Below, in pieces: positions 2,571 through 59,775 of a stretch of 64,000 nucleotides of DNA. This stretch comes from Odontesthes bonariensis (taxonomy: Eukaryota; Chordata; Actinopteri; Atheriniformes; Atherinopsidae): contig NC_134526.1 of assembly GCF_027942865.1 (NCBI RefSeq), positions 17,837,784 to 17,901,783 of the forward strand, given 5' to 3'. The notes beneath the pieces are model-generated. The model searched no databases, was not told where the DNA came from, and was given only the letters and a program-made list of their open reading frames with translations. Every line of letters begins with the position of its first letter. Position 1 is the stretch's first letter. Both the position numbers and the translations under genes were made by a program.

Positions 2571-3254
2571 TGGAAAACTGGAAATTGCAAGTGCACGATC
2601 AGAGCTAAAAAAAAAGAAGTTGCACAAATTATTCCACATTTATTTACAAAAAAAAAAAAATTTTCTTGCTTCATTATCCCAGATTTTAAACGTGTCTCAC
2701 TGTGATAAGTTTATGTAGAGATGCAGCTTTTAGCCAAGTTAAAATAACAGTTCTAATGATAAATGTGAATATCTGGAAACATTTTTTCTCAGTATTTCAC
2801 ATATTTTTTAATGTATTTTTTCAGTTTACTTATCATTTTATCATTTATAAAATGGGTAGAGAGTGTAATTTCTCTCTGGAACAGAAAGTCTGCCTTGTAT
2901 TTGTAAATAGTGAATGAAAAGCAGACAAAAGTAAGATTTTGAGACAACTTGAGACGAGTGTTGTGCTCAAAGTCTGTCATTGTTATCAACGGATTGTGTT
3001 TTCTTTTCAATTATTGGTGTCTTTTCCACAATATTTTGTTTTTATTACATCTTCTATTTTAATTACATCAAGAAATGTTAAGAGTTTAAGAGGACATAAT
3101 GTATCTTGTGTGTCGGGTGGTGCATTGAAAAACAGAGTTTATATCAGCTGGTGTATTCTAAAAAAAGGAGACGCATTCAGCCTTTGGTACACATCACAGA
3201 TTACAACCTTCTGAGTGCTTTGACGGATACATAATAAAATAAAGAACCACCAAC
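2571..3254 (+). other. 3' flank of the SAMD9L-like gene
   Basis: AT-rich sequence after the stop codon with no coding signal. AATAAA-type signals occur near 3231-3240, immediately before the LINE fragment, so this is probably 3' UTR plus flank. The short open frames here have no recognisable protein features. Confidence 0.5.
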
Positions 3255-3780
3255 TCAAGTCCTGACTAGAACCAGGAAATACGACCATATTAGCCCAGTG
3301 CTCAGGTCTCTGCACTGGCTTCCTGTCGCTCAGAGAATAGACTTTAAAACAGCTCTGCTCGTGTACAAGCCTCTTCATGGTCAAGCGCCACAGTGCATCT
3401 CTGACATGTTAGAGCCATATGAACCAACTCGGGCTCTGAGAACCTCAGGGAGGGGTCTCCTGCTGGTGCCCAGAGTCAGGACTAAACAAGGCGAGGCTGC
3501 GTTTCAGTTTTATGCTCCTAAAATCTGGAACAGCCTTCCAGAAGATGTGAGACAGGCCTCAACTCTGACCATGTTTAAATCCAGGCTGAAAACAGTTCCG
3601 TTTAGCTGTGCATATGACACCTGAAAGTATTTTATCTGCACTCTTCACTTTTTAATTAATTAATTGTTTTTTTAATGATTTTATTGCCTTCTTGTGATTT
3701 TATGTAGCTGTAAAGCCTTTTGAATTACCTTGTGTACGAATTGTGCTCTATAAATAAAATTGCCTTGCCTTGCCATATTG
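3255..3780 (+). mobile_element. 5'-truncated non-LTR retrotransposon (L2/CR1-type LINE 3' end)
   Basis: An open frame from about 3258 to 3624 encodes the C-terminus of a LINE reverse transcriptase: KYDHISPVLRSLHWLPVAQR, then a WNSLPEDVR block and FKSRLKT. These are diagnostic of the many L2/CR1-like elements of fish. After the stop come an A/T-rich 3' UTR and a tail of repeated TTGCC units (about 3762-3776), the short-repeat tail usual for this clade. The rest of the element is missing, as expected for a 5'-truncated insertion. The frame is intact here, suggesting a fairly young copy. The exact family cannot be named from this fragment. Confidence 0.85.
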
Positions 3781-5352
3781 TAACAACTCATGCAATAAGT
3801 ACAAGTCAAAGAAACAAGTCAAAGAAAATGTGTGAAATCTTTTCCTTTAATGGTTTATCGTATTCTCCATTGTGTAAAAGCTTTATCAAGTGTTTCATTA
3901 AAAGAAAAAAAAAGTACACCGAGAAATATTTTTCTTTTTAGATAATTTTCCCTCTAAACTCAATGAACCAAGGTGCTGGCTGAATGAACAAGGATGAGTC
4001 CTCTTCGGGTCCAATGTCTCTCTGTACGCAGGTGGCAGTTTCCTCCACACAACGAGAACAGGCGTGGTCTTCAAGTCAATGGTTCCGTGAAGTGAAAGCT
4101 TACAACATTAGGGGAGTTACACTTCATGCATGTGAATGGCTTCAGGGAATACTCGTGATTGTGTGAAGCCCTTATGAGCAGTGAGTGTCTTACCTGCAGC
4201 AGACAGCGGTCAGAGAACTCTGACATGAGAGCAAAGCTAAGAGCTATGTACGACCCCTGGCTAAAAGTATAAGGCTCATTTTACACAACATCATTTTGGG
4301 ATCAGACAGTTTAATATAGTGTTTATTTTACCATCTTTTTTAACCAAACAGGCTTCATGTTTCCGTACCTCACTGCTGGTCAGCGGCCTGCAACTGATCA
4401 ACGAAGACCGCCATGAGTTACATCACACTGGCTGGATGACTGGATGAATAGTTTTGCAAAGATTTAAAAGGTTGTGCAGGAGTTTTGAGCTTTTTTGACT
4501 TTTTACACATTCTTACCGTCTCGTGGTTGATTCTATGGAATTCTACGGGAGGAGTTGTGAGTCACAGCTGAGTGAAAAGTGTCTTTAAAAAAGGCACCCT
4601 GTAAAATATTTGTGATACGTAAGAAAGTCCATACTTACCGATGCAGGCTGCTCGTATGACTGCCTGTGTTGCACTCATACCTTTGGTTCTTTTGGAGATT
4701 ATTCAACCCAAAAGTTTGGACATGCTCAACAAGTTGCCACAAAATGGATACAAACACTGGTATAATCTATGACTTATGATGCAGTCCTTGAGATCATAAT
4801 AAGTGATTGGCTACCATCAATGTTCCACAATTGCTCTTTTCACAGCTCTTTTTTTTATTTAGCATTCACAATAACTCTACATCACAGATATTACGATCTC
4901 ACGCGAGAACAACAAACAAAGCTAGATGGAAATTAAAATCATGGTGGCAGTACTTACAGATTTAACTAACCTGTTACCGGCTGTGAGTCTTCTCCATGTG
5001 AGAAGTTAATAATCGAGAGATCAAACGTGAGGATGGCTGATGATTAAAAACAGGATTAAGTGGTAAAACCATTTTCTTTTCTTTTTTTTTTTTTATACAG
5101 ACATGAGAAAAAGTCATTTGTTCATTCAAATTTCCCATCACACATTTAACTCATGAACTGGCTGTCAGACTGCTGATGATGCGGTGGGACACACTTTAGT
5201 CTGCACAACCGGTGAACATCCAAACGGCATCGTAGTTTCCTTTAAGAGCTCTTAACACTCGGGAAAGAGCTATCAAATTAAACCACGGCCTCCTCGTGCT
5301 CTCATCTGTAAAAACATGGGTGACGTGACAGAAAACATCTCAACAGGAAAGA
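3781..5352. other. Intergenic stretch with minus-strand donor-like sites
   Basis: There is no protein-coding gene that I can support. On the minus strand several good 5' splice-site-like sequences occur: GTAAGAC with exon side at 4194, GTAAGA at 4517, GTAAGTAT at 4639, GTAAGTA at 4958 and GTTAGT at 4971. A minus-strand polyadenylation-type signal lies near 4854-4859. Together these hint at a spliced noncoding transcript, or alternative 3' exons of znf207, on the minus strand. Exon boundaries cannot be fixed from the sequence alone. Confidence 0.3.
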
Positions 5353-5406
5353 TTTGCATTGAAATGAGCCAACATGGTTCCTAAATGCAAAACAAAAAAA
5401 AAACAA

Positions 5407-5476
5407 GGGCCTTCACCAAACTTGCTGCAAGTTTGGGGACATTGATATCCAACAGCTTGGAAAGCTGTGAGGGCCC
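5407..5476. ncRNA. Candidate structured RNA element, copy 1
   Basis: About 70 nt folds as a closed multibranch structure. A 10-bp closing stem (5407-5416 with 5467-5476, one wobble) encloses a near-perfect hairpin at 5417-5435 with a 3-nt loop, a short GGA...TCC hairpin, and a 7-bp hairpin ACAGCTT/AAGCTGT at 5452-5468. A related element lies about 590 bp away with compensatory stem changes. A further hairpin at 5353-5391 followed by an A-rich hinge lies just 5' on the plus strand, and ACAGAA begins 19 nt after the closing stem in both copies. That recalls H/ACA architecture but is not a clean match. Strand is unresolved: on the minus strand the element would sit about 40 nt inside an intron that begins with a GC donor near 5515. 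Confidence 0.4.
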
Positions 5477-5998
5477 CTGGTAATGAATGAGAAGACAGAA
5501 AACAGTGAGACTTGCCTCGGGCTGAACAGGGCTACACTGAGACAGGGCCTCAGCCAGTCCCCAATGGCATTGCTACAGGGAGAAGAGAAATCTGGGTTTT
5601 AGCACTGCAGCCACTGTTGACCCGGATGTTATGCAGCTGTACAGGGCACTTAAGTGTGTCAAAGGCCTGTCAGCCTGTGCCATGTACAGAGCATGAATAA
5701 AGAGGTCTAATTTACAGCTTATAGTCAAAGGAATACAGTAACTGGCATTTTTCATCAGCAAAACATTTCAGTTATCGGTTCAAGACAACGACAACACAAA
5801 AACACGTAGTTTACAACTGCAAACCAACCTGCTGGGATATCTTTGTCCCTACTAGCGTCCCACAAAAAAGGAGTCTTACATTTTTCCCAGAGTTTATTAG
5901 AATACAAGTTTCACAACAACACATGAACCATTTCATTTACTTCCTCGGCTTAGGGTTCATTTTTACCATGAAACAGAATGAAAGCAGTAACTGTGGAA

Positions 5999-6055
5999 GC
6001 CCTCACCAAACAAAGTTGGGGACATCAGTCCAACAGCACTATGTGCTGTGAAGGC
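5999..6055. ncRNA. Candidate structured RNA element, copy 2
   Basis: This is a diverged copy of the element at 5407-5476. It keeps CTCACCAAAC, TTGGGGACAT and CAACAGC in order. The last hairpin is ACAGCAC/GTGCTGT (6033-6049), again 7 bp with a 3-nt loop, although three bases of each arm differ from copy 1. The middle hairpin is GGAC-ATCA-GTCC. The closing stem GCCCTCAC/GTGAAGGC has a small internal loop. ACAGAA follows 19 nt after the stem, the same spacing as copy 1. A minus-strand GC donor (GCAAGT, about 6100) lies at almost the same distance as in copy 1. The type of RNA is unknown. Confidence 0.38.
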
Positions 6056-6484
6056 CTCACCACTTAGCACAGAACAGAAATGCGTTTACAGAAAACTTGC
6101 CTTGATAAAGGGTGGGTACTGCCCATGTAACTCCAGCGCCTTCACAACACTACGAACCATATCTACAACACTTCTATAAACCTGAATGAAACATGAGAAG
6201 GAAAGAAAGCCACAGAACAGAGACGGACTGAATCAGAATCAGGTAACAGTTCATAGTCTATGTTAGTTACAGTGTAAATATTTCCCATGCGCTCTGTGAT
6301 GCCTTTAGGGCTCCTCTGTTTGCTGTTTTTTTTTTTTTTTTTTTTGTGTCTCATCCTCACAGCTCAGTAGTTGAATAGTCAGTATACTGTGGTACTATAA
6401 TACCAACACTGTTTCTCTACTAGCAGCTGAGGGCATTAGAAAATGGATGAGTATCCAAACCTATTGAAGAGAGGAAGGCAGACT

Positions 6485-9400
6485 TCAGTAGCGGCCTCCG
6501 GGAGACATGACAGGGGGTCTCATACCCATGGGTGGTCGTGGTGGGACTCCCGGGTACCCCAGAGTGACCACAGGAGGCGCCTGTCCGAAGGGAGGCGCCC
6601 CACCTGGTATGTAGCCTGGCACCCCCCGCGGTGGGCCACCATATTGGCCTGCAAGAACACAGAGTTGTATATCTTATTTAAAAAACATTTGCATTTGGCT
6701 TACATCAACGACATATAGCACTGTGCGAAAGTCTAAAGCACGTCTTAAGTAATCTGTTAAAGTTGTCCAGGCTGTCTTCATGTCTTTCAAAGATTTTCTT
6801 GAAGACTAGCTGCTTTTATTATTTTATTTGTTTTACTCATTTTCAGTTACAGTCCTCAAACCTCAACATTTTCAGGGGAATGTGTTTTTTGTTCATGAAG
6901 CCACTTCAAAAGCACAGAAAAAAGAAACCCGATCAAAGAAAATTCACCAGTGTTGTGTCGACACATAACAGGCAACTTTGCAAAGAGCTCATTTTAGAGT
7001 TGTATCATTTTTAAATTGTTGCCTTAGGCTGTTACTTGCTGCCTTTTGCTAAAACATAGTATTCGTTTCCACTTTTTATGCTGCATCTATGAAAAATGCC
7101 AAAGATAACACAGTCTGACTGGCATAAAATAAAAAAAACTGGACAACTGGATGGCAAAATAAGAAGCGCCAGGCCTGCAAAAACTAAACTTTAACTAAAG
7201 TGTAAAATGTTATGCCATACAGCTGAAGAGAGTGGGTGTAAAGAAAAGTTTAAGTAATGAGCAGAGAGATTCTCATCTTGGGAGATTTTTCTTTTGTTAT
7301 TGTTGTTTTTACTCAAACTCAGCTTGAAATACACAACACTGGTTAGCAGGGCCACTAAATTCCTAAAGTAGTGTTTTTTTTTTATGTTAGAGGCTGAGAA
7401 TTGGAAAAAAAGCTGACAGAGAGTAATTCCCCAATTTCTTCCAAACCAGCTAAGGGAAACTCGTTTTTTTTCTATGAAGCAATATTTCAAAAGTTTGCTT
7501 CAAATTCACAATTAATGTGGCTGATGTGGAATAAAATAAAAAAATAAAAAAAGGTTTTCTGAACTACAAGCAGACGGTGTATACCAGGTAAGGGATTTCC
7601 CATGCTGAGTTGCTGAGGGGCCATTATGCCACCCGCGGTGCCCACTGACGGGTGGGCAGCAGCGGCAGTCTGACCGGGGCGATGAATACCGCTGTGGTAC
7701 CTGGTCAGCTGAGCCCGCAACTCTTCCTACAGCAAACAGAGAGCAAGAAGAAGAGGATTGGTTTGACACTGCAGCTCCGTATCTCAACCAGAAAGATTGA
7801 ACAATTAATCGGCTTCAAGAAACTTTTTTTCCTCAAACCGCGTACCTACTTGCTGTTAAAAAACCTATAAAAGACACAGCTCCAGCCGGACTACTTACCA
7901 GTGAAAGATCTTCATCGGGGTGGATCAACTTACTGGTTGCACTGGAGGTGGTGAGCGTGGCGGGCTTACTGGTCATAGTGGAGGGAGGTTTGGAGACTGT
8001 GCCGCTGCCAGCATTGGCGCTGGCCACAGCTGCGGCGGCCTGGGTGTAGGCTGGGAATGTGGGCTTCGAGGGGTCGGAGCTGGTGGATAGGGGGCCGTGG
8101 GGGGAGCCCGACACCGTCTGATGACTCTGAAGGGGGAGAAAGCAACAAAGAGAGACTGCTGAGAGGTGTTTGAATCTTACAGCACGCAGTCACACTTTTG
8201 AGACTACTCCTCTATAACCGTGGCTCATTAGGTTTGTTTGTTCGCAGGATTAAGACGATTAAGAAACAGGATTTTATCAGTTTCACAGGTTGTATTAATA
8301 TCCACTTACACTACAGTGTTTTTACAAACAGATGGAACTTAGGAGCAGGTGCAGAGCACCGAGTCCCATTTGAATCTAATTGAGCCTACACATCCAGAAG
8401 GGATTCGAATGGCAACCGCGTTATCTGGCTGTGCTGGTCGGGTTTTATTCAGTTTAAACGCAGACCAACATGTTTACGAACAATTCAAAAGTCCGGTTTT
8501 GGTTGGAACAACATAATAATTTCCTCTTTTCAGGTGTCATGGAAACGTTAGTTCCTTAGTTGAACCACATCAGAGGAACATATTATGTTCTCACATACAG
8601 TGCTGTTTGTTTTTGGTGTTGAACTTGAATGGGGAGTAAACAATGTGCACACAACCTTTCTCTGTATACTCAGGTTTGGTCAGAGGAGTTTTACTTATTA
8701 CTACATCTCATACATTTCTATCTATAGTCGACTGTAAGCATGTAATCTTTGAGGATTTAGTGGAAAATTTCTAAATAGGGTCTTACTTGTCCCAACAATT
8801 CTACACAGATGGTGTTAAACACATGATTTTACCTGTCCAGCGCTGGGGAAAAGAGGTTTTGCGATGTCGGTCTGGGCTGACGGGGCGGTGGCAGCAGGAA
8901 CTATGGGTCTGCTCAGGATGCTTGCAGCGGGGGGGGGCTGAGGCATGTGTGTGATGCCAGAACGGTGACCCACTGGAGGAGGAATGCCTGAAAGCAGCAA
9001 TTCAGTCATTTTAAGTTACGCTACATGGGGGCAAGTGTGCTCTTAAGATGCAGGCTGGAGGGGGCAGGTGTTACCTGGTGGCACGCCTGGCATCATCGGA
9101 GGCATCATCCCACCCATCGGTATCATCCTTAAAATACGCAGGACAAAAAAAAATCCAGGATCAAATACAATGTGTAGGGGAAAAATGGGATTAATGCAAA
9201 GTCATGATTATCAAAAGGCAAATATTTACCCAGGAGGCATTCCTGGCATTACAGGGGGCAGTCCTGGCATCATCGGGGGAACACCTGGTATCATCGGGGG
9301 AATTCCTGAAAAGAAGAGATTCGTATTACACAATGGGCCTCATGCAAGAACCGTTCGTACGCACAGATTTGTTCTCAAATCATCCATACGAGTGATTTAA

Positions 9401-12298
9401 GAGAATTTGCGCATTCACCAATCTTTTCCTATTTTACGTTTTCTTTCAGGTACGAACAGAATTTACGAGTGATCCAGACCTGTCGTAGGAGTTTCGTAAA
9501 ATAGTCCGCTGTTATTCAAATCACGGTTGCTTGACTAATGGATTGTATATTTGATTACTTTGAAGAAAACTTAAGATTAAGATCAGATTTATTGTCATGC
9601 ATACACACAAAATTTGTCCTCCCCTTTTAACCCATCCAGGTTGGCACCTGTTTGACACACACGCGCACAGGGTCACACACTCAGAGACAGATGCCAACCT
9701 GGAGCAGTGGGCAGCCATGAAGCGCCCGGGGAGCATGGGAGTGCGGTGCCTTGCTCAAGGGCACCTCAGCCGTGACAAGGAGGTGGACTGACACCCCTCC
9801 AGCTATCAGTTCCACCAATTTTTTTTGAGTGGCGAGAGTGGGAATTGAACCGCCAACCTTCTGCCTTAGCCCGTCAGGCACTTGGAAGAGACCGTGTGGA
9901 GACAGACGAATGGCTGACATCGCGATTAAGATTCCCAAGGACTGTGCTGCTACAAATATGCAGCTTGCTAGAGCCACGACTCCAGAGAGAAACACGCCGA
10001 TCAAACCCAATTCCACCACACGCCCAGGTCCTCACCACCCTTGGATTTTTGGCCACGGAACCTTTCAGAGCGAGATTGGAGACAGATCGGGGGTGTCCCA
10101 GTCCTCTGTGAGTCGTGCGCTCCCCTTGGTCATCAAAACTCTCATCAGTTTATCACCCATGGTACATCAAATTCCCATACGCCGCTTTCCAACAAGTACA
10201 AATTAAGAGGGACTTTCATGCCGTGGCTGGACTGCCAAACATAATTGGAGCACGAGACACATATACGCATCAAAGCACCCGTGCTGTCGGGAGCGCACTG
10301 AGCTGAAGGCCAGGTGGGTGTGTCTCGATTCCTCGTTCATGGCGCAATATTGCCATGAACGAGGGTCTCCACCTGAACCAGCCCAGGCAGACCAGAAGGT
10401 GTGGTGCCAGAAGACCCCCCTCATGGACCACCCCATCAAAGAGCCATCATGATGAGGCAACAACTGATTGCACGGCTTTAGTTGCAGTCATCGAGCGCCT
10501 GCCCATGGCGAGACGTTTTTTTTTAAGCCATTTTCATATCAAACCATTTATTTTTTTATTTCGGTGACATATTAACAGCACTCGTAATTGCTTCCCATTT
10601 CTTCACTTTAGCAGGTCCCGTAATTCCACTGCTGACACTGCTAAAAATGACAGATTTTCCTTTTTGGTCTCAGAGCTCCTAAAGTTGTTCTTTTTGCGCC
10701 TTGATGTAATTTCTCATGACTCAACACTCAACACTTCCTGGCACAGGAGAGAGGAAGCACATCCTTATATGGTATAATTTTGGGCGTGGAGTATGCAAAT
10801 CTACTATCCTCGTGCACATGAACTTAGATACGCACGTGTGTGATTCACCATTTACGCAGGTCGTTTACACACTTTTTCCAAAGTTAAGAGCGCTTGTTGA
10901 ATCTGACGTGGCGTGTTCGTACGAGACCTTCTTACGAAAAAAGGGAGAGAAATTTAGAATAAAAATACGAAAATGTTCTTGCATGAGGCCCATTCATCGC
11001 TAAATAAACTCCATTCCCACTTAGTTAAGTACTTGGCCTCATATTCTACCTTTGTGTCCTGTACACAGCCTGTCAGACAGCTCTACCCTCACCATGTAAA
11101 TACCTCTGATATATGATGTCTCCTGTGCCAACAAAAAGTTGCTTATTTAGTTGCGGTGCAAACTATGTCTTGGTGTGTCAGTGGAGTGTCTGCTTCCATT
11201 CGTGGCTAAGAGATGGGTGTGGAAAACAGGCTCGTGCATGTGCATATAGTTTAGACAATTATGAGATTTAGAAAAGAGAACCATACGTAAGCCGTTTCCC
11301 ACCTGAGTATCCGCTTGGAGGTATCCCCGGAGCGCCGACGCCAACAGGCAAACCAGGCTGCGTCATCTGTGGCATGTAGCCTGTAGGAGGCTGACCTGCA
11401 ACAGGCGGCTGGAAGGAGGGGCCGGGCTCATCGTCCTCGTCATCTTCGTCAGAGTCATCCTGGTTCTGCTTTTTCTTCTGAGTCTCTGAACACAAGGAGA
11501 TGCTGAATCAGCCCCATGGACAGACAAGAACAAAACACCCATTCAAAGTATTCCGATGTAGATAAACACCTTGGTTCTTTTGCTCCAGCACACGCCTTCT
11601 CTCCTCCATGTCTTTCTCTGGAATACCCTCCATGCCATATATTTCCAGCTCGATATCTGTTCTTCCAGGTATTGCATTAGGAACCCCGTCAATGGTCTCT
11701 TTGTGTACCTAGAAATGATGCGCTCATTTTCATTGCCAAAGAACTGATTTGTTCATTTCATGTCAGTGATTTGCAGAGAGTTCTCACCTGCATACAGTGG
11801 ATGGCGAGCCCGGGGCCAGTGTACAGCTTCTTATGACAGATGTGACACTTGAAATGTTTGGCCTTCTGATGCTGAATGAGAATTTTCTCATCATCAAAAT
11901 CTCTGTTACAGTACCTGAGACGACGGCTCAGGAAACTTTCGCTGGCAAAACTTGACAACTGTGATTGCATTTCATAGCTGGATGTGCCCCGCACAGGTTG
12001 CACGTTACTCTCTCTGCACAGACACCAAAGATTTCCCTTGCTTATCTGGAATATCCCCCTACTTTAAACATCTCTGAGCTTACTCGACTCAATCTAAACA
12101 GCCGAGATAAAGAACAAATCGGTCGTGTTGTTACATGTTGGGAGCATAAATAAGAGTCCTGGCTGGGAAGAGCTCTAAGTAAACGTTATTTTACAGATAA
12201 CCACGGTGACATGTCCCGATAAGAGCAATACAACACCAAACATTACACAAAGGATACCAGCACCAAGGCTTCATCTGCTTTTTCTTCTTCCTCCCCAT
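6485..12298 (-). CDS. znf207: BuGZ / ZNF207 zinc finger protein
   Basis: Ten coding exons (high to low): 12258-12298, 11788-11914, 11570-11708, 11303-11485, 9230-9305, 9075-9127, 8833-8987, 7899-8126, 7585-7726, 6485-6648. They sum to 1,308 nt, 435 aa. The start is [15 protein letters not shown], as in vertebrate ZNF207. Two C2H2-type fingers follow within residues 15-58 ([31 protein letters not shown]), then an acidic [11 protein letters not shown] segment, Pro/Met/Gly-rich repeats in short exons, the Bub3-binding GLEBS region (DEDLSLEELRAQL across the exon 8-9 junction), and the conserved end [12 protein letters not shown]. The known role is microtubule binding and stabilising/loading Bub3 at kinetochores, with nuclear phase-separating behaviour from the low-complexity part. 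Intron 1 has a U12-type donor. Intron 4 carries a Harbinger transposon. Confidence 0.97.
6716..7165 (+). mobile_element. Degenerate Tc1-like element, copy A (znf207 last intron)
   Basis: The sequence begins GCACTGTGCGAAAGTCTAAAGC, resembling a Tc1/mariner-type terminus. It shares its order of blocks (CCAGGCTG, TCTTTCAAAGA, CTGCTTTT, CTCATTTTCAG, CATTTTCAGGGGAATGT, TTGTTCATGAAGCC) with the segments at about 19143-19690 and 53195-53945. There is no intact transposase. The boundaries are approximate. Confidence 0.6.
9333..10993 (+). mobile_element. Internally deleted PIF/Harbinger DNA transposon in znf207 intron 4
   Basis: A perfect 19-bp inverted repeat bounds the element: ATGGGCCTCATGCAAGAAC at 9333-9351 and its complement at 10975-10993. 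The outer AT could be a 2-bp target duplication or part of the terminus. Between them are broken pieces of a HARBI1-type transposase on the plus strand: [20 protein letters not shown] (about 9905-9970), a helix-turn-helix remnant, [10 protein letters not shown](R)D (about 10220-10260), [16 protein letters not shown] (about 10290-10335) and NEGLHLN. The catalytic middle is largely missing and frames are shifted, so it is non-autonomous. A second repeat (9570-9850) seems nested inside. Confidence 0.8.
9570..9850 (+). repeat. Nested fish interspersed repeat inside the Harbinger element
   Basis: The segment from TTATTGTCATGCATACACACAAAATTTGTCCTCC through GTGCCTTGCTCAAGGGCACCTCAGC to GGGAATTGAACCGCCAACCTTCTG is a familiar multicopy motif string in fish genomes. 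It interrupts the order of transposase pieces only at their 5' side. I do not name a family. The boundaries are approximate, and the evidence is the characteristic word content only. Confidence 0.5.
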
Positions 12299-50800: not shown

Positions 50801-53800
50801 GACTGCATTATAGACCAAGCCACCCTGCTGTACCTCATCTTCACAGTAGCTCCTTTTGGTCTTGCTCCGTGATGAACGTCTCAAGCTGTCCTTCTCTTCC
50901 AAAGTTTTCTTGCTGTGCTGAATAACTTTGGCTTTTTCCAACAACTTCTTTGCCTGCTTCCGTTTTTCAGACTTACTAAATGTCTGAAACAAAGGTAAAT
51001 GAGGACGTGTTCGTCATCATCCGACATCAAAACAGAGAATCAACACATAAAGATTTAAGATTAGAAATCAACAACTTACTTCAGTTGCCAAAGAAGCGAT
51101 TGTGTCACTTGCATTTTCAGCCTTGGTTGTGGAAACATTCTTATGAACCCGACTAAATCTAATCCTAAACAAAAATGGGGTGAGAAAAAACATAAAAGAA
51201 ACAGAATATAAATACGATGCCAAATACTGAAGACAACACACAGATAGAGTGAAATGCATGCTGTACAGAAGTCATCAGTCATAAACTGAACGTCTGTGTC
51301 ACCTGATTGGACTTTCCTCTGCGTCTGGGGGACACACCACCTCTGCTGCAAAGACTCCATGTTTGGACTTGCGTGTCTTCGGGGTGGACGTGTTTGCGGG
51401 GCCGTTCTGAGGTAAAACAGAACCAGCAACGGAGTCCTTTGGCGACTCATTTTTTCTCCTGCTTTTTCTGACAGGAGTTGTCGGGGTGGTCTGAGGCGTT
51501 TGTCTAACCGCCGCCTCCCGTCTCGACCTCCTCACAGCTGGGACTGAGGGAGCCGAGGGGACGAGAGGCTCCTCGCTTTTGTCGTCAATCTCAATAACTG
51601 TGGCCACAGTTTCTTCCCCAGCAGGTGAGGTGGTGACTGCTTCATTTTCCTCTTTAGCTTTGTTTCTTCCTTTTCTCGCAGGTTTCTTTTTGGCTGCTTT
51701 GTTTTCCTGAGAGACTTGCTCAACACAGGCTGGAATCACAGAACCATCTTCGGTAACTTTGTCAGAAGCATCCACAATCTTCTCTCCAGCTTGCTTCTGT
51801 TTGCCTTGGCCTTTAACAGGTTTAGTTTTGGACCCTTCCACGCTGGGCTGTTTGAAGGCAGACATGAACTGCTTCCTCTCTGCTTCACTGCTTTTCGGAG
51901 TGGATTCACTCTCAATCACCGCCAGCTCCAGATCCTCCTCTTGAAGGACCACGTTGGATCTCCTTTTGAGCGTTGGAGAGGGAAGGGGGTTTCCAGCCTC
52001 TGTGAGAGGAGACGAGACCGTCTCTGCAGGGCTATTAGCCCCTTTTCTCCGGTTGAAGATCGAAGCCACCTTTCCAACTTCTTTAACTGCTTCCCGTTTG
52101 GGGGAGACTACATGCACCTCAGCCTGGATAGTGACAGTTCGGGGTGAGATCTGAACTGACGGCACCGGAGAGCCCGCATTTTCTTCAACCTTGGGGATAT
52201 CCAACTGTCCAGAGTTTAATTTCTCTACCTCCGCTGTGGTTTTACTCACATCGTCATCTTCTATGTCCTCTTCAATCGAGCCCTGATTCTGACTGCGCAC
52301 AAAATCCTCAAAGGAGATTTTGACTGTGCTGTTGTTTAGCTGAGAGGCTTCATCCACGTCAGCCTCCACGTTATCATCACACAACGAGCTCTGTGCCTTC
52401 ATCTCCTCTGGCTCTGGATGCTTTGCCTCTTTTTGTTGCCTCCTCCCAGCCTTGCGTGCAGCAGCTTTAACCTGTTTTCCATCATCTCTTGTAGATACAA
52501 TTGGAGATGGCTCAGTAGTTTTTAGTGCTGGTTCAGATTTGACAGCGTCCTCACATTTGGAACCAGGTTCGTCTCTTTGAGCCCGCTCATCACCGACAGT
52601 CTTGGAGTCAGCTTTACCAGACGCTCTTCCTTTGCCACAAGCCTTGGCACTGAACTTTGAAAGCAGAGCTGCTGTTTCGCTGGCAAGCACACAGCTTCCA
52701 ACTGCATCTGCTGTGGAGTCTGCTGTGGAGTCTACTCTTTCGTGCGATTCTTCTACAATCAGGCAGCTCGACTCGTCGGTGGAGCTCATACTTTCAGCCA
52801 CAAGTTTCCTCGCCGCCTTGCTGGTCTTTCTTACCCGTTTCTGAGACGGCCGTTTCCCCCCCTCTGGGTCTGTGTTGTTCTCTGCAGATTGAGACATCCG
52901 ACAGTTTTCTTTCGATTGCTCCGGTGGGGTTGTTTTTTCTTTAGAGGAGGATACCTTTCGACTAAAGTAGTCCATGATGTTGTTGGAGCGAGGAGGAGAA
53001 AACGGTTTCTCCACGGGCTTGGGAACAGGAGAGAAATAATTGGTGATCGTTTTGACCACAGGACTCCCAGCATCTTTTCGAGGTTTTTTGCAAGGCTGTA
53101 AAAAGAGAAAGTTGATCAAACACAAAAAAAGGTTTTTCACATAATCGTTACATATTTGAGGTGACGAATATTGACGAATATTGTATATTGTAGCAGTATT
53201 GTGCTAAAGTCTTGAGTCCCCCCTCATTTCCTGATAAATTTGCTTCCAAGCAGAAAGAATTAAGCAGTAGTTCTCCAGGCTTATTGAAGGTCTTTCAAAG
53301 TTTGTTTCTCCCCTAATGGGGTTGGACGCTTTTTCACTCATTTTCAGTCCAGTTCTTGTTTCCCACCATTTTCAGAGGCATGTTTTTTTGTTCATTATGA
53401 ATCTGTCAAGCATTAAACAGTCACAAAGCTGAAGGAATGAGTCGGTTTTAAATAGTTTCTTTCGGCACTTTGTTAGTAGCAGCCTGTCAGAAGAATGTCA
53501 GATTATACAGTTTGTCCGGCATAAAAACAATATTTTAGCCCCAACAAGATAATTCCACAAAAAGGCGTTAGCCAAAAACAGCAGCAACAGGTCTCATGGA
53601 GGGATGAATCCTTCCCAGAACCTGGACCTAAACATTATTGCAGCAGTGTGAGATCATCTTGACAGAGAACGGAACAAAAGGCAGAAAACATCCAAAGAAG
53701 AGCTTTGGGATATCCTGCAAGAAGCCTGGAGAACTATTCCTGAAAACTATTTAAAGAAATGACAGAAAGCTTGTCTAAGAGGGTTCAGGGTGTGTTAAAG

Positions 53801-56309: not shown

Positions 56310-59300
56310 ATGGCCAGTAAACCTGCTGTTTCTAGTTCTGGTAAGTGATCTTTTATTCATATCTCCTTAAAACTGTGCAATCTTGTGTAATTGAAAGTCA
56401 CTTAACAAAGATGATTTAAATCGGCTTTTTAAAAGGCTTTTAAAATTACTCTTTACTGGCTGAATATGTCCAGTACATGAAATTTGACTCTGTAGCAAAC
56501 AAATGACACCAACAGACTGTTATAATTTGTACAATCATGTAAATTATGCTTAATCTCTCCGACAGGGAAAAGTCTTCACTCTTCAGAGCTGAGGATTGTG
56601 TTGATAGGAGGAAGAGAAATAAAAGGAAGTAAAAGCTCGACTGGCAACTTCATACTACAGGGGGGTGTTTTTGACACTAGCAAAAGAACGGCTCAGAGTG
56701 TGGCGAGGCAGCGGGAGGTACATGGCAGACCAGTCACTGTAGTTGATACTCCGGGGTGGTGGTGGATGTATACACGAGAAAACACCCCAAAGCTGGATCA
56801 GATAGAAATCCAGAATAGTGTCCACCTGTGTCCTCCGGGGCCTCATGTCTTTCTGCTGGTTATCCCTTTTGATATACATTTGCCCCAGCTCAGCAAACCA
56901 TCACTAAAAGAGCACCTTGAACTTTACGGGGCAGAAGTGCTCACTCGCACCATTGTGCTGTTCACTTCACTTGCTCCATGTAGTGACAAAAATGTAGAAT
57001 CCAAAATCAAAACAAGCCCAACGCTGCAGTGGATTCTTCAGCAATGTGGGAACAGAAGACATGTCCTCAATATCAGAAACGAGCAGGATAGCACTCAAGT
57101 CCTAAAGCTTTTTGAGAAAATTGAGGCAGTGGTTGCAGACAACGGAGGGAGTCACTATACAGGTGATATTGCTCATGGAAATGCTCTGAGAGAAGAAATA
57201 AAGGTTTTGGCTAAAAGAGCGTCAAAAAGGTTTGATGAAGTGGAGAAACAAAGAAGGTATCTCAAAGCACTGATCGGAGGTAAGTCACATAGTAATCCTT
57301 TCCTGAAAATGAGAATGAATGCATTGAATATTAACTCACATCAATCTACATAAACAACCAAGTCTCTCGTCTATAAATAATTTAAAAAAAAAATCAAATA
57401 AAGCTGGAGAGCAAACACTGATTGAAGTTGTCATACTAATTTTACTTATTTTACAATCTTTTCCAATAATTTGAAACAATTAAACAATTACACTTCTTGT
57501 AATAGTAAAACCAGAGAATCTATCACCCTTAACCACCAACATCCACCACCATCTTGGCTTCAAAAGCCTTTGAATTACATCTTTATTTTTTTTCCTGTAA
57601 GTACTGATTTTTTAAAAATGATTCTTTAATAATGTCATTTCAAATTCTTACAACTTCTGCAGGCAGCAAAGCTCCCCCAGAACATCTGAGACTGGTGATT
57701 GTTGGTGCACAGTGGGCAGCCAAGAGCTCAGCAGGCAACACTATTCTGGGAAAAAATGCATTTAATGTAAATTCCAATAACAAAAGAACAATGCGCTGTG
57801 AAATAAGCCATGGCATGGTCGAGGGAAGGAGACTCACGGTGGTAGATTCTCCTGGCTGGTTCTACAACCACACCCTTCAGGACACCAATGAGATGGACAA
57901 ACTTGAAATCGAGGACAGCGTGTATCTGTGCCCTCCAGGACCTCATGCAGTGCTGCTTGTGATCGTCCTGGCAACGGCAATCAATGCATCGTACCTGAGA
58001 ACTGTCCAGGAACACATGAGTGTTTTTACAGATGATGTCTGGAAGCACACCATTGTTCTGTTTACTAGAGGCGACTGGCTGGGAGTGAAGACTGTGGAAG
58101 AGCGAATAGAGAGTGAGGAAGGTCTGCAGTGGCTGGTGAATAAATGTGGGAACAGGTATCACGTCCTGAACAACGTGGACCGTAGCAATAAGATGCAGGT
58201 AAAGGTGCTTCTTGAGAAGATTGAAGAGATGTGTGCAGGAAATGATGATCCTTACTATGAAGTTGACCAGGACCGTGCAACACAAATAGAGGAAGAAAGA
58301 GATGCTGTAAACAAGAAGGCCAGACAGTTAAGGAAAATAACAGAACGACAGTCAAGAATGCTGAAAGAACTGTTTGAAGGTAACCTAAAATCTTTTAACA
58401 CATTCTGATATATATGGAAGCAATGTTACCATTTAATGATAAAACATGAAAGAAAATAAACTTTGCATTTTTGTACAGGGGAGAGGCAGCCAATCAATGA
58501 CATGCGGATTCTACTTGTTGGCCGAAAAGGGTCAGGAAAGAGTGCAGCAGGAAATTTAATGCTGTTCAGGGAGGTGTTTGAAACTGTTTTTGACACAGCT
58601 TGGTTTGAGAAGGTAAACCAATATGCTAAAACATCCCTTAAACGTTTCACTCACAGTTTAAAGGTCAGAATGAATGTCTGTCAGGATTTGTCATGCCACA
58701 GAGTTTGTTGTGTGTCTTTGTAGAATTCCCAAGATCAAAGGAGAACCGCAACATGTGTGAAACATCAAGGAAATTTTGATGGAGTAAAAATCACAGTGGT
58801 TGAAGCACCAGGCTGGTATAAAGACACGAAAGCACCCGACTGGCTCAAAGGTGAAGTTCTCCGCGGTGTCTCCATGTGTGCTCCAGGGCCTCATGTGTTC
58901 CTCTTGGTTGTTCCCATCTTCAAAGCATTCACAGAGAGAGATTACAAAGCAGTGGTCAAGCTCCTGATGCCATTTACTGACAGAGTGTGGAGACACTGCA
59001 TGGTGCTGTTCACCTGGGGAAACTGGCTCAATGAACTGCCCATTGAAGAGTACATTGCCAGAGAGGGCAAAGCCCTCCAAGAGCTTTTAGGAAAGTGTGG
59101 GAACAGATACCATGTTCTTGACTGGAATTGGTTTGGTGATCCTGTTCCAGTCAAAGGGCTGTTAAAGAAAATTATTGAAATGACAACACAAAACAAGGGA
59201 TGCTTCTCAAATGAGGAAAAACAAAGAACATTTTTCTGGCAAGCAAAACAGCCCATGCTGACAGAGGAGGAGTGGAAGAGAAGGGAGCAGACGCTGATAG

Positions 59301-59775
59301 ACCGAGTGTTAAAAGCTTTAGCGACAGAACCAGAAGAACCAAAGCTGCAAGCTGTGACGATGGCGCACAGCATGGATGACTTCTACATTCCGAGCAGTAA
59401 GTTTGATATAATCAAGTGGAAATCTTTGCACATACTCTGTTACACGTATTCTTCCACTGAATGACCCATTAATCTTCTGTTTTAGTGAGCGGAGATGCCG
59501 CCTCGGAATATGGGAGCATCTCAGAGTTCAGGAATCAGAGAGCGCATGACAATGTTGCTGAATGGCTCAGAAGAAGAGTTAGAAAGTCTGACATCACCTC
59601 TGGGATTGGCAGCATTTGTTCCTCTGCCACTTACCTGGAAAGGTTTGATGAAAACCCTCCAAAGGATGACATTCCAACAGCAAGTTGTTCTTTCCCTGAA
59701 AAGGATAAAGCAGTTATTCCTCACATGAGAGTCTTCACGAACTCTGTAAAGATTGAACGGAGAAACTCTTGTTAG
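56310..59775 (+). CDS. GIMAP/AIG1-like protein with three tandem GTPase domains
   Basis: Six exons: 56310-56340, 56566-57279, 57663-58379, 58479-58612, 58724-59396, 59486-59775. All junctions are in frame; total 2,559 nt, 852 aa. AIG1 domain 1 (about 18-235) has VDTPGWW and LCPPGPHVFLLVIP. Domain 2 (about 255-480) has VDSPGWF and LCPPGPHAVLLVIV. Domain 3 (about 492-720) has EAPGWY and MCAPGPHVFLLVVP. Each carries the QQCGNR/NKCGNR/GKCGNR-YHVLN block of fish GIMAPs and a trailing charged helix. The P-loops differ: domain 3 is canonical (GRKGSGKS), domain 2 is GAQWAAKS, and domain 1 is GGREIKGSKSS. A Ser-rich tail of about 95 residues follows with no domain I recognise. GIMAPs are cytosolic GTPases of lymphocyte survival and immunity in mammals; the role here is inferred. 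The first exon is short (10 codons), so the start depends on its splice. Confidence 0.88.

Follow-up and report, generated by a model that had tools for sequence, protein, structure and literature searches.

TDP-43 (TARDBP) autoregulates its expression through splicing in its 3' untranslated region (3'UTR) and poly(A) choice. The U1A PIE is located in the 3'UTR of U1A's own message and is bound by U1A itself. The mascRNA-type tRNA-like elements of MALAT1 and NEAT1 have a small cloverleaf-like fold near the RNA 3' end. GC donors are rare, and a GC 5' splice site usually reads AG|GCAAGT. According to the available parts of the published reports, ZNF207 is a U1 snRNP auxiliary factor that alters splicing linked to nonsense-mediated decay (NMD), including that of other U1 factors (PMC12191140). 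RNA decay that depends on a 5' splice site requires ZNF207; nuclear retention of this kind requires it too, though less than it requires LENG8, and tethered ZNF207 lowers reporter mRNA (PMC12363940). ZFP207 binding was located in UTRs in 267 of 1,400 events (PMC8892232), and in the ovary of the ricefield eel znf207 RNA was mainly in the nucleus (PMC9208217). Frith and Ni (2023; PMC10735318) described 25 conserved segments that vertebrates share with other bilaterians, including a Znf207 segment placed in the 3'UTR, and considered that UTR conservation may reflect RNA function. The available parts of PMC12191140, PMC12363940 and PMC8892232 did not report ZNF207 autoregulation or NMD-sensitive inclusion. 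Those of PMC6197280, PMC8501971, PMC2831892 (which describes a conserved U12-type intron in the ZNF207 gene), PMC12868714 and PMC8395096 contained nothing on ZNF207 that bears on the element described here. Among the matches listed for the ZNF207 literature, with subscription literature mostly outside the scope, no title or abstract opening concerned such an element.

The window analysed here is a stretch of 64,000 nucleotides from Odontesthes bonariensis. Its minus strand codes for a ZNF207/BuGZ-type protein from approximately 12.1 to 6.5 kb; the name is assigned from the protein sequence. The zinc-finger region matched 6j0d, a PDB chain labelled only 'transcription factor' and presumably a plant relative (E 1.8e-34), as well as C2H2 Pfam models, the latter below their cut-offs. 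Two structured copies, c1 and c2, were both located 3' of the ZNF207 stop codon on the same strand as the gene (Table 1). The 945 Mb genome contained a second znf207 gene on contig C4 (four exon matches, two places), whose last exon was 79% identical to the last coding exon in the window (ungapped columns). This locus is labelled L053, and 19.8 kb of it were scanned from the zinc-finger exons onward. Other frames were observed in the window. On the plus strand, frames at 9776-10206, inside the ZNF207 gene span, resembled a Harbinger-type nuclease element by eye, and the frame at 9829-10203 had two weak, unrelated Pfam matches (E 0.015 and 0.062). A plus-strand frame at 3238-3624 resembled by eye a fragment of a fish LINE reverse transcriptase; a Pfam match at E 0.1 was not found for it. 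Two AIG1/GIMAP-type GTPase frames were present at 56526-58408 on the plus strand (Pfam AIG1, E 1.1e-31 and 2.6e-39), followed at 58724-59464 by a third plus-strand frame apparently similar to them. A long minus-strand frame of 634 residues (51299-53203) resembles ATAD5/ELG1.

Table 1. Features at the two znf207 loci. Positions refer to the window unless prefixed with L053, the second znf207 gene.
Feature	Position	Strand	Description
Structured element c1	5405..5478	minus	Four-way junction; P1 with one C.A mismatch, P2 7 bp, P3 5 bp, P4 9 bp
Structured element c2	5996..6059	minus	Four-way junction; P1 9 bp, P2 7 bp, P3 4 bp, P4 4 bp
Structured element c3	L053:3467-3400	minus	Third copy, at second znf207 gene
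Zinc-finger exons of ZNF207/BuGZ gene	~11.6-11.9 kb	minus	
Last coding exon of ZNF207/BuGZ gene	6485..6648	minus	Proline-rich; stop TGA 6487-6485
Conserved non-coding exon-like block, 81 nt	6101..6181	minus	Acceptor-like TTTCATTCAG before, GC donor-like AAG|GCAAGT after
Partner exon-like block, 87 nt	L053:3608-3522		At second znf207 gene
AG|GCAAGT of c2	6095..6102	minus	Candidate GC 5' splice site or U1 site
AG|GCAAGT of c1	5510..5517	minus	
Possible second exon before c1, 57 nt	5516..5572	minus	Acceptor-like TCTCTTCTCCCTGTAG, GC donor-like CGAG|GCAAGT; acceptor scan
Acceptor-like TTTTTTTGTTTTGCATTTAG after c1	5381..5400	minus	Acceptor scan
AATAAA 3' of c2	5893..5898	minus	Candidate proximal poly(A) signal; motif scan
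AATAAA 3' of c1	4854..4859	minus	Candidate distal poly(A) signal; motif scan
Candidate poly(A) signals 3' of c3	L053:3396 and 3251		Motif scan

In the predicted four-way junction, the closing stem P1 is followed by P2 (ACAGC.../...GCUGU), P3 (GGA.../...UCC) and P4 (CCAA.../...UUGG), and a single unpaired U separates P2 from P3 and P4 from P1. Compared with shuffled sequences, the fold of c1 had a z of −4.5 on the minus and −3.6 on the plus strand, and that of c2 −3.6 and −2.8, respectively. The variable pairs include G-U pairs which, in c1 and c2, are kept on the minus strand only. A joint covariance model built from c1 and c2 themselves scored c1 at 97.6 bits on the minus strand (plus: 26.3) and c2 at 77.9 bits (plus: 16.8). 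The RNA strand of the element is likely the minus strand, the sense of ZNF207. This assignment is based on c1, c2 and the gene, as c3 has a slightly better fold on the plus strand (z −7.0, minus −6.4). When the whole 1,648 nt were folded, P1 and P3 of both copies re-paired elsewhere and P2 and P4 stayed; local folds of 151 and 161 nt retained both junctions.

The initial annotation of this DNA had described two related structured copies, and this observation was confirmed. The hairpins ACAGCTT/AAGCTGT and ACAGCAC/GTGCTGT, said to differ in both arms, have these sequences and the same pairing register, and the closing stems, said to be maintained in different sequence, likewise pair in the same register. 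An ACAGAA word reported downstream of each copy was present approximately 18 nt away on the plus strand and absent from c3; it was dropped, as it is not kept at the third copy. Sequence similarity alone between c1 and c2 appeared only moderately significant: under a strict scheme, a score as high was reached by 24 of 6000 random window pairs and by 2 of 4000 shuffles, and under a lenient one by 3 of 6000 and 0 of 4000. The covariance-model search that had been proposed was more productive, in that a model built from c1 only recovered c2 in the window (E 8e-7) and the third copy, c3, in the 19.8 kb of the second gene (44.4 bits, E 2.6e-9; opposite strand 23.8). The two-copy model detected one element in the 19.8 kb, again c3 (L053:3467-3401, minus; 62 bits, and 26.5 on the opposite strand of the same place). 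Because of the structure and the third copy, c1 and c2 are no chance pair.

Between c1 and c2, all 24 compared pairs were kept despite 11 substitutions, which none of 200,000 random placements matched. Adding two further pairs to the comparison gave 24 paired of 26, which 3 of 100,000 random placements equalled. From c1 to c3 there were 13 substitutions at paired positions and all 26 pairs were kept (0 of 100,000 random placements). Copies c2 and c3 differed by only four paired-position substitutions; the random test gave 16 of 100,000 in one direction and, from c3 to c2, 18,819 of 100,000, a comparison of low power with four substitutions. Across the three copies, five of the 26 pairs were changed on both sides, one copy being unpaired in two of these five, and 95.9% of 74 cells were paired, compared with 35.9 to 55.4% when the partners were slid. 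A shuffle control was moderate for three copies, with the observed values reached in 11 to 41 of 500 shuffles, and gave 114 to 149 of 500 for two copies, two rows being too few for this test. Overall, the four-way junction fold looks to be kept by selection.

The annotated interval (5407..6055) contained real structured copies, and the conserved unit proved to be larger. GCAAGT had been reported on the other strand near both copies. In agreement with this, the longer motif AGGCAAGT was present at two places on the window's minus strand, each time just before a copy, and also before c3; it was invariant at the three copies, and its only other occurrence in the window was on the plus strand elsewhere. 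From this donor-like site to the first base of the junction, the distance was 37 nt (c1), 41 nt (c2) and 54 nt (c3). When the two genes were aligned and identity was taken over ungapped columns, the junction was the most conserved piece measured (84%), followed by the last coding exon (79%), the exon-like block (75%), the linker between GC site and junction (47%) and the upstream 3'UTR (41%). The linker is not conserved, which counts against the module proposed below. The alignment 3' of the junction was hard to read, as 51 of 174 columns were identical and 99 gapped (68% of ungapped). One of six local BLAST hits between the genes spanned the last coding exon to the junction end (6663-5996; L053 4032-3401) with 62% identity.

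The exon-like block begins after an acceptor-like TTTCA(T/C)TCAG in the two genes, and 12 of 20 columns of the wider stretch are identical between TTTCATTCAG in the window and TTTCACTCAG in the partner. Splicing of the block to the penultimate coding exon at these acceptors would give the reading G-L-stop for the window gene and G-S-stop for the partner; in each, a single complete codon would precede an in-frame TAG. The window acceptor at 6181 passed the simple filter of the acceptor scan (at least 80% pyrimidines), the partner's at L053:3608 failed it, and use of another AG, located 10 nt before the partner acceptor, would lose the immediate stop. A coding role of the block was considered and rejected. 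The 27-residue window frame had no Pfam match and two weak PDB matches, both to designed proteins (E 0.18 and 1.7), and an initially considered likeness to a kinase focal-adhesion domain was dropped. The block is regarded as non-coding because of a frame-breaking length difference and stops in the partner gene.

The possible second exon before c1 is a weaker candidate, as it has no clear similarity to the 6181-6101 block. An intron of 135 nt (5515-5381) with c1 inside it would run from the GC site of c1 to the acceptor-like site at 5381, and the second gene has a similar arrangement, with an acceptor-like TTCTTTTTTTCAG ending at L053:3323, after c3. Unlike for c1 and c3, no acceptor-like site was found after c2, which would therefore need a distant acceptor. 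Pyrimidine-rich stretches ending in AG were also observed on the minus strand at 5477-5500, at the start of P1 in c1, and at L053:3474-3495, just before P1 in c3; together with the GC site they would bound introns of only about 39 and 48 nt. A simple scan for U1 duplexes gave −6.0 and −5.9 kcal/mol for the two GC sites, and several nearby GU sites were stronger (to −8.7 kcal/mol). One stretch in P4/P1 of c2, GUUUGGUGAGG (6001-6011, minus), had a U1 duplex of −8.6 kcal/mol compared with −5.9 kcal/mol for the GC site and is paired in the fold.

Taking together the literature on ZNF207 and U1, decay and retention, UTR binding, nuclear RNA and the conserved 3'UTR, our best reading, held tentatively, is that of a cis-acting regulatory RNA module of ZNF207, in which poison-exon or U1-dependent autoregulation beside a structured RNA would act in the sense transcript. 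The element probably helps znf207 to limit its own output. In this unit, the conserved exon would be non-coding and end in a weak GC 5' splice site, and the four-way junction would start 37-54 nt beyond the donor. When ZNF207 is plentiful, U1 would engage the GC site. The exon might then be spliced in from the penultimate coding exon, in which case the immediate stop and a downstream exon junction would lead to NMD. Alternatively, the terminal exon with U1 bound might be kept in the nucleus, or use of its neighbouring poly(A) signal might be suppressed. At low ZNF207, productive mRNA would be made, with the terminal coding exon and the signal at 5898 prevailing. The junction may set the strength of this choice, either by binding a protein or by positioning the GC site and hiding the stronger GU site in its stems. 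The location, the fold with its compensatory changes, the exon block and the GC motif are observed at both znf207 genes, from which we infer the splice-site use, the decay and the feedback by ZNF207.

A second possibility, to which we give somewhat less credence, is that the junction acts in the finished 3'UTR by binding a protein that sets mRNA stability, localisation or translation, the GC motif and the block being separate, unspliced binding sites. Ordinary mRNA would include c2, which is located 3' of the stop codon and 5' of the AATAAA at 5898. The high conservation of the junction relative to the other pieces would also fit, as would the treatment of the Znf207 segment as 3'UTR with a possible RNA function in the available text of Frith and Ni (PMC10735318). 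However, the invariant AG|GCAAGT would be left unexplained, and so would the acceptor-like end (TTTCATTCAG and TTTCACTCAG) with its in-frame stop in both genes.

Instead, U1 and ZNF207 might be docked on the terminal exon by the GC sites and the junction, so that the RNA is retained in the nucleus or the nearby poly(A) signal is blocked, with no exon being formed. The need for ZNF207 in 5'-splice-site-dependent decay and retention (available parts of PMC12363940) and the mainly nuclear znf207 RNA in ricefield eel ovary (likewise PMC9208217) are consistent with such docking, and an AATAAA is present 3' of both GC sites (5898 and 4859). On the other hand, a C at position +2 of the splice site weakens pairing with U1, and docking leaves the conserved acceptor side and the exon block unexplained; we consider it unlikely. 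We consider it still less likely that the element is an ancient animal RNA switch, in which the junction would sense a protein or small molecule and gate the GC 5' splice site by alternately hiding the GU site in P4/P1 (UUGGUGARGG) and exposing the GC site, which would place a gene with roles in splicing and cell division under riboswitch-like splicing control, possibly since early bilaterians. Of what defines a riboswitch, a ligand-binding fold that changes output, the element showed a fold with conserved junction-proximal pairs only.

Processing of the transcript into an independent small RNA, such as a miRNA precursor, snoRNA or tRNA-like RNA, would suit a compact, stable fold of approximately 65-75 nt in three copies. 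Against it, the window had no match at the gathering threshold in Rfam release 15, and permissive Rfam scans of the two loci gave 2 and 5 matches, far below the gathering scores and with no family common to both. ARAGORN (bacterial setting) also detected no tRNA gene in the window, and such an origin seems very improbable.

Dispersed copies in the genome had been named beforehand as evidence that would speak against the initial annotation. In the 945 Mb genome, the two exact patterns tested occurred at znf207 loci only. Both GCTGTTGGA..GTCCCCAA and TCCCCAA..TTGGTGARGGC, which overlaps the first pattern by seven letters, matched c1, c2 and c3 alone, with no match for the reversed controls; diverged copies would be missed by either pattern, as both are exact. 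A transposon or repeat would have many copies at unrelated places, whereas each exact pattern had three places, all at znf207 genes. DNA queries of 701 and 90 bases matched only themselves, and this test was insensitive, because neither query detected the other gene's copy. In viral and prokaryote contigs, a loose pattern matched 6 and 41 stretches, respectively; all 47 were scored with the model and regarded as chance, since this gave a single match at E 0.81. Although two copies lie within 600 bases, an origin as mobile-element or repeat copies, or as a chance pair, is hardly credible in view of the exact patterns matching the three znf207 copies alone, the same place of the element in two gene copies on different contigs, and the random-substitution tests. 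That selection acts on the RNA structure, as originally proposed in place of chance or a transposon, is supported by the fold, the compensatory changes, c3 and the genome pattern counts. The element is best described as a probably regulatory RNA of conserved structure that is, by the exact patterns, specific to znf207 and that matches no family of Rfam release 15 at the gathering threshold.

Read as an autoregulatory module, the znf207 element can be compared with the systems introduced above. Like the mascRNA-type elements, it has a small cloverleaf-like fold near an RNA 3' end; in contrast to them, ARAGORN finds no tRNA in the window. With the U1A PIE it shares a U1-associated protein and a structured 3'UTR RNA in that protein's own mRNA near a poly(A) signal. 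The folds are different, as the znf207 element is a four-way junction. TDP-43 offers the likeness of an RNA-binding splicing regulator whose own 3'UTR has alternative splice sites and competing poly(A) signals. At znf207, by comparison, splicing and feedback are predicted, and we know of no GC donor beside a conserved four-way junction in TDP-43. SR protein poison exons, as far as the available sources describe them, are similar in being conserved non-coding exons with an in-frame stop in the gene of a splicing regulator. The znf207 block differs in that it lies within the normal terminal exon, 3' of the stop codon, and in its GC donor, the adjacent structured RNA and a use that is predicted.

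The segment of Frith and Ni is located in the 3'UTR of the same gene, with an RNA function suggested, whereas the available text describes no structure, exon or splice site (PMC10735318). This bilaterian-conserved segment may be the znf207 junction element. RNA structure together with a hidden exon would then be a possible explanation of the deep conservation reported for the Znf207 3'UTR, the function of which was left open in the available text of PMC10735318. A structured module with GC donor-like sites in the znf207 message is a small, concrete candidate for the control of its level. The general kind, autoregulatory control through a 3'UTR or poison exon, is known; the pairing of a GC donor with a four-way junction is unusual.
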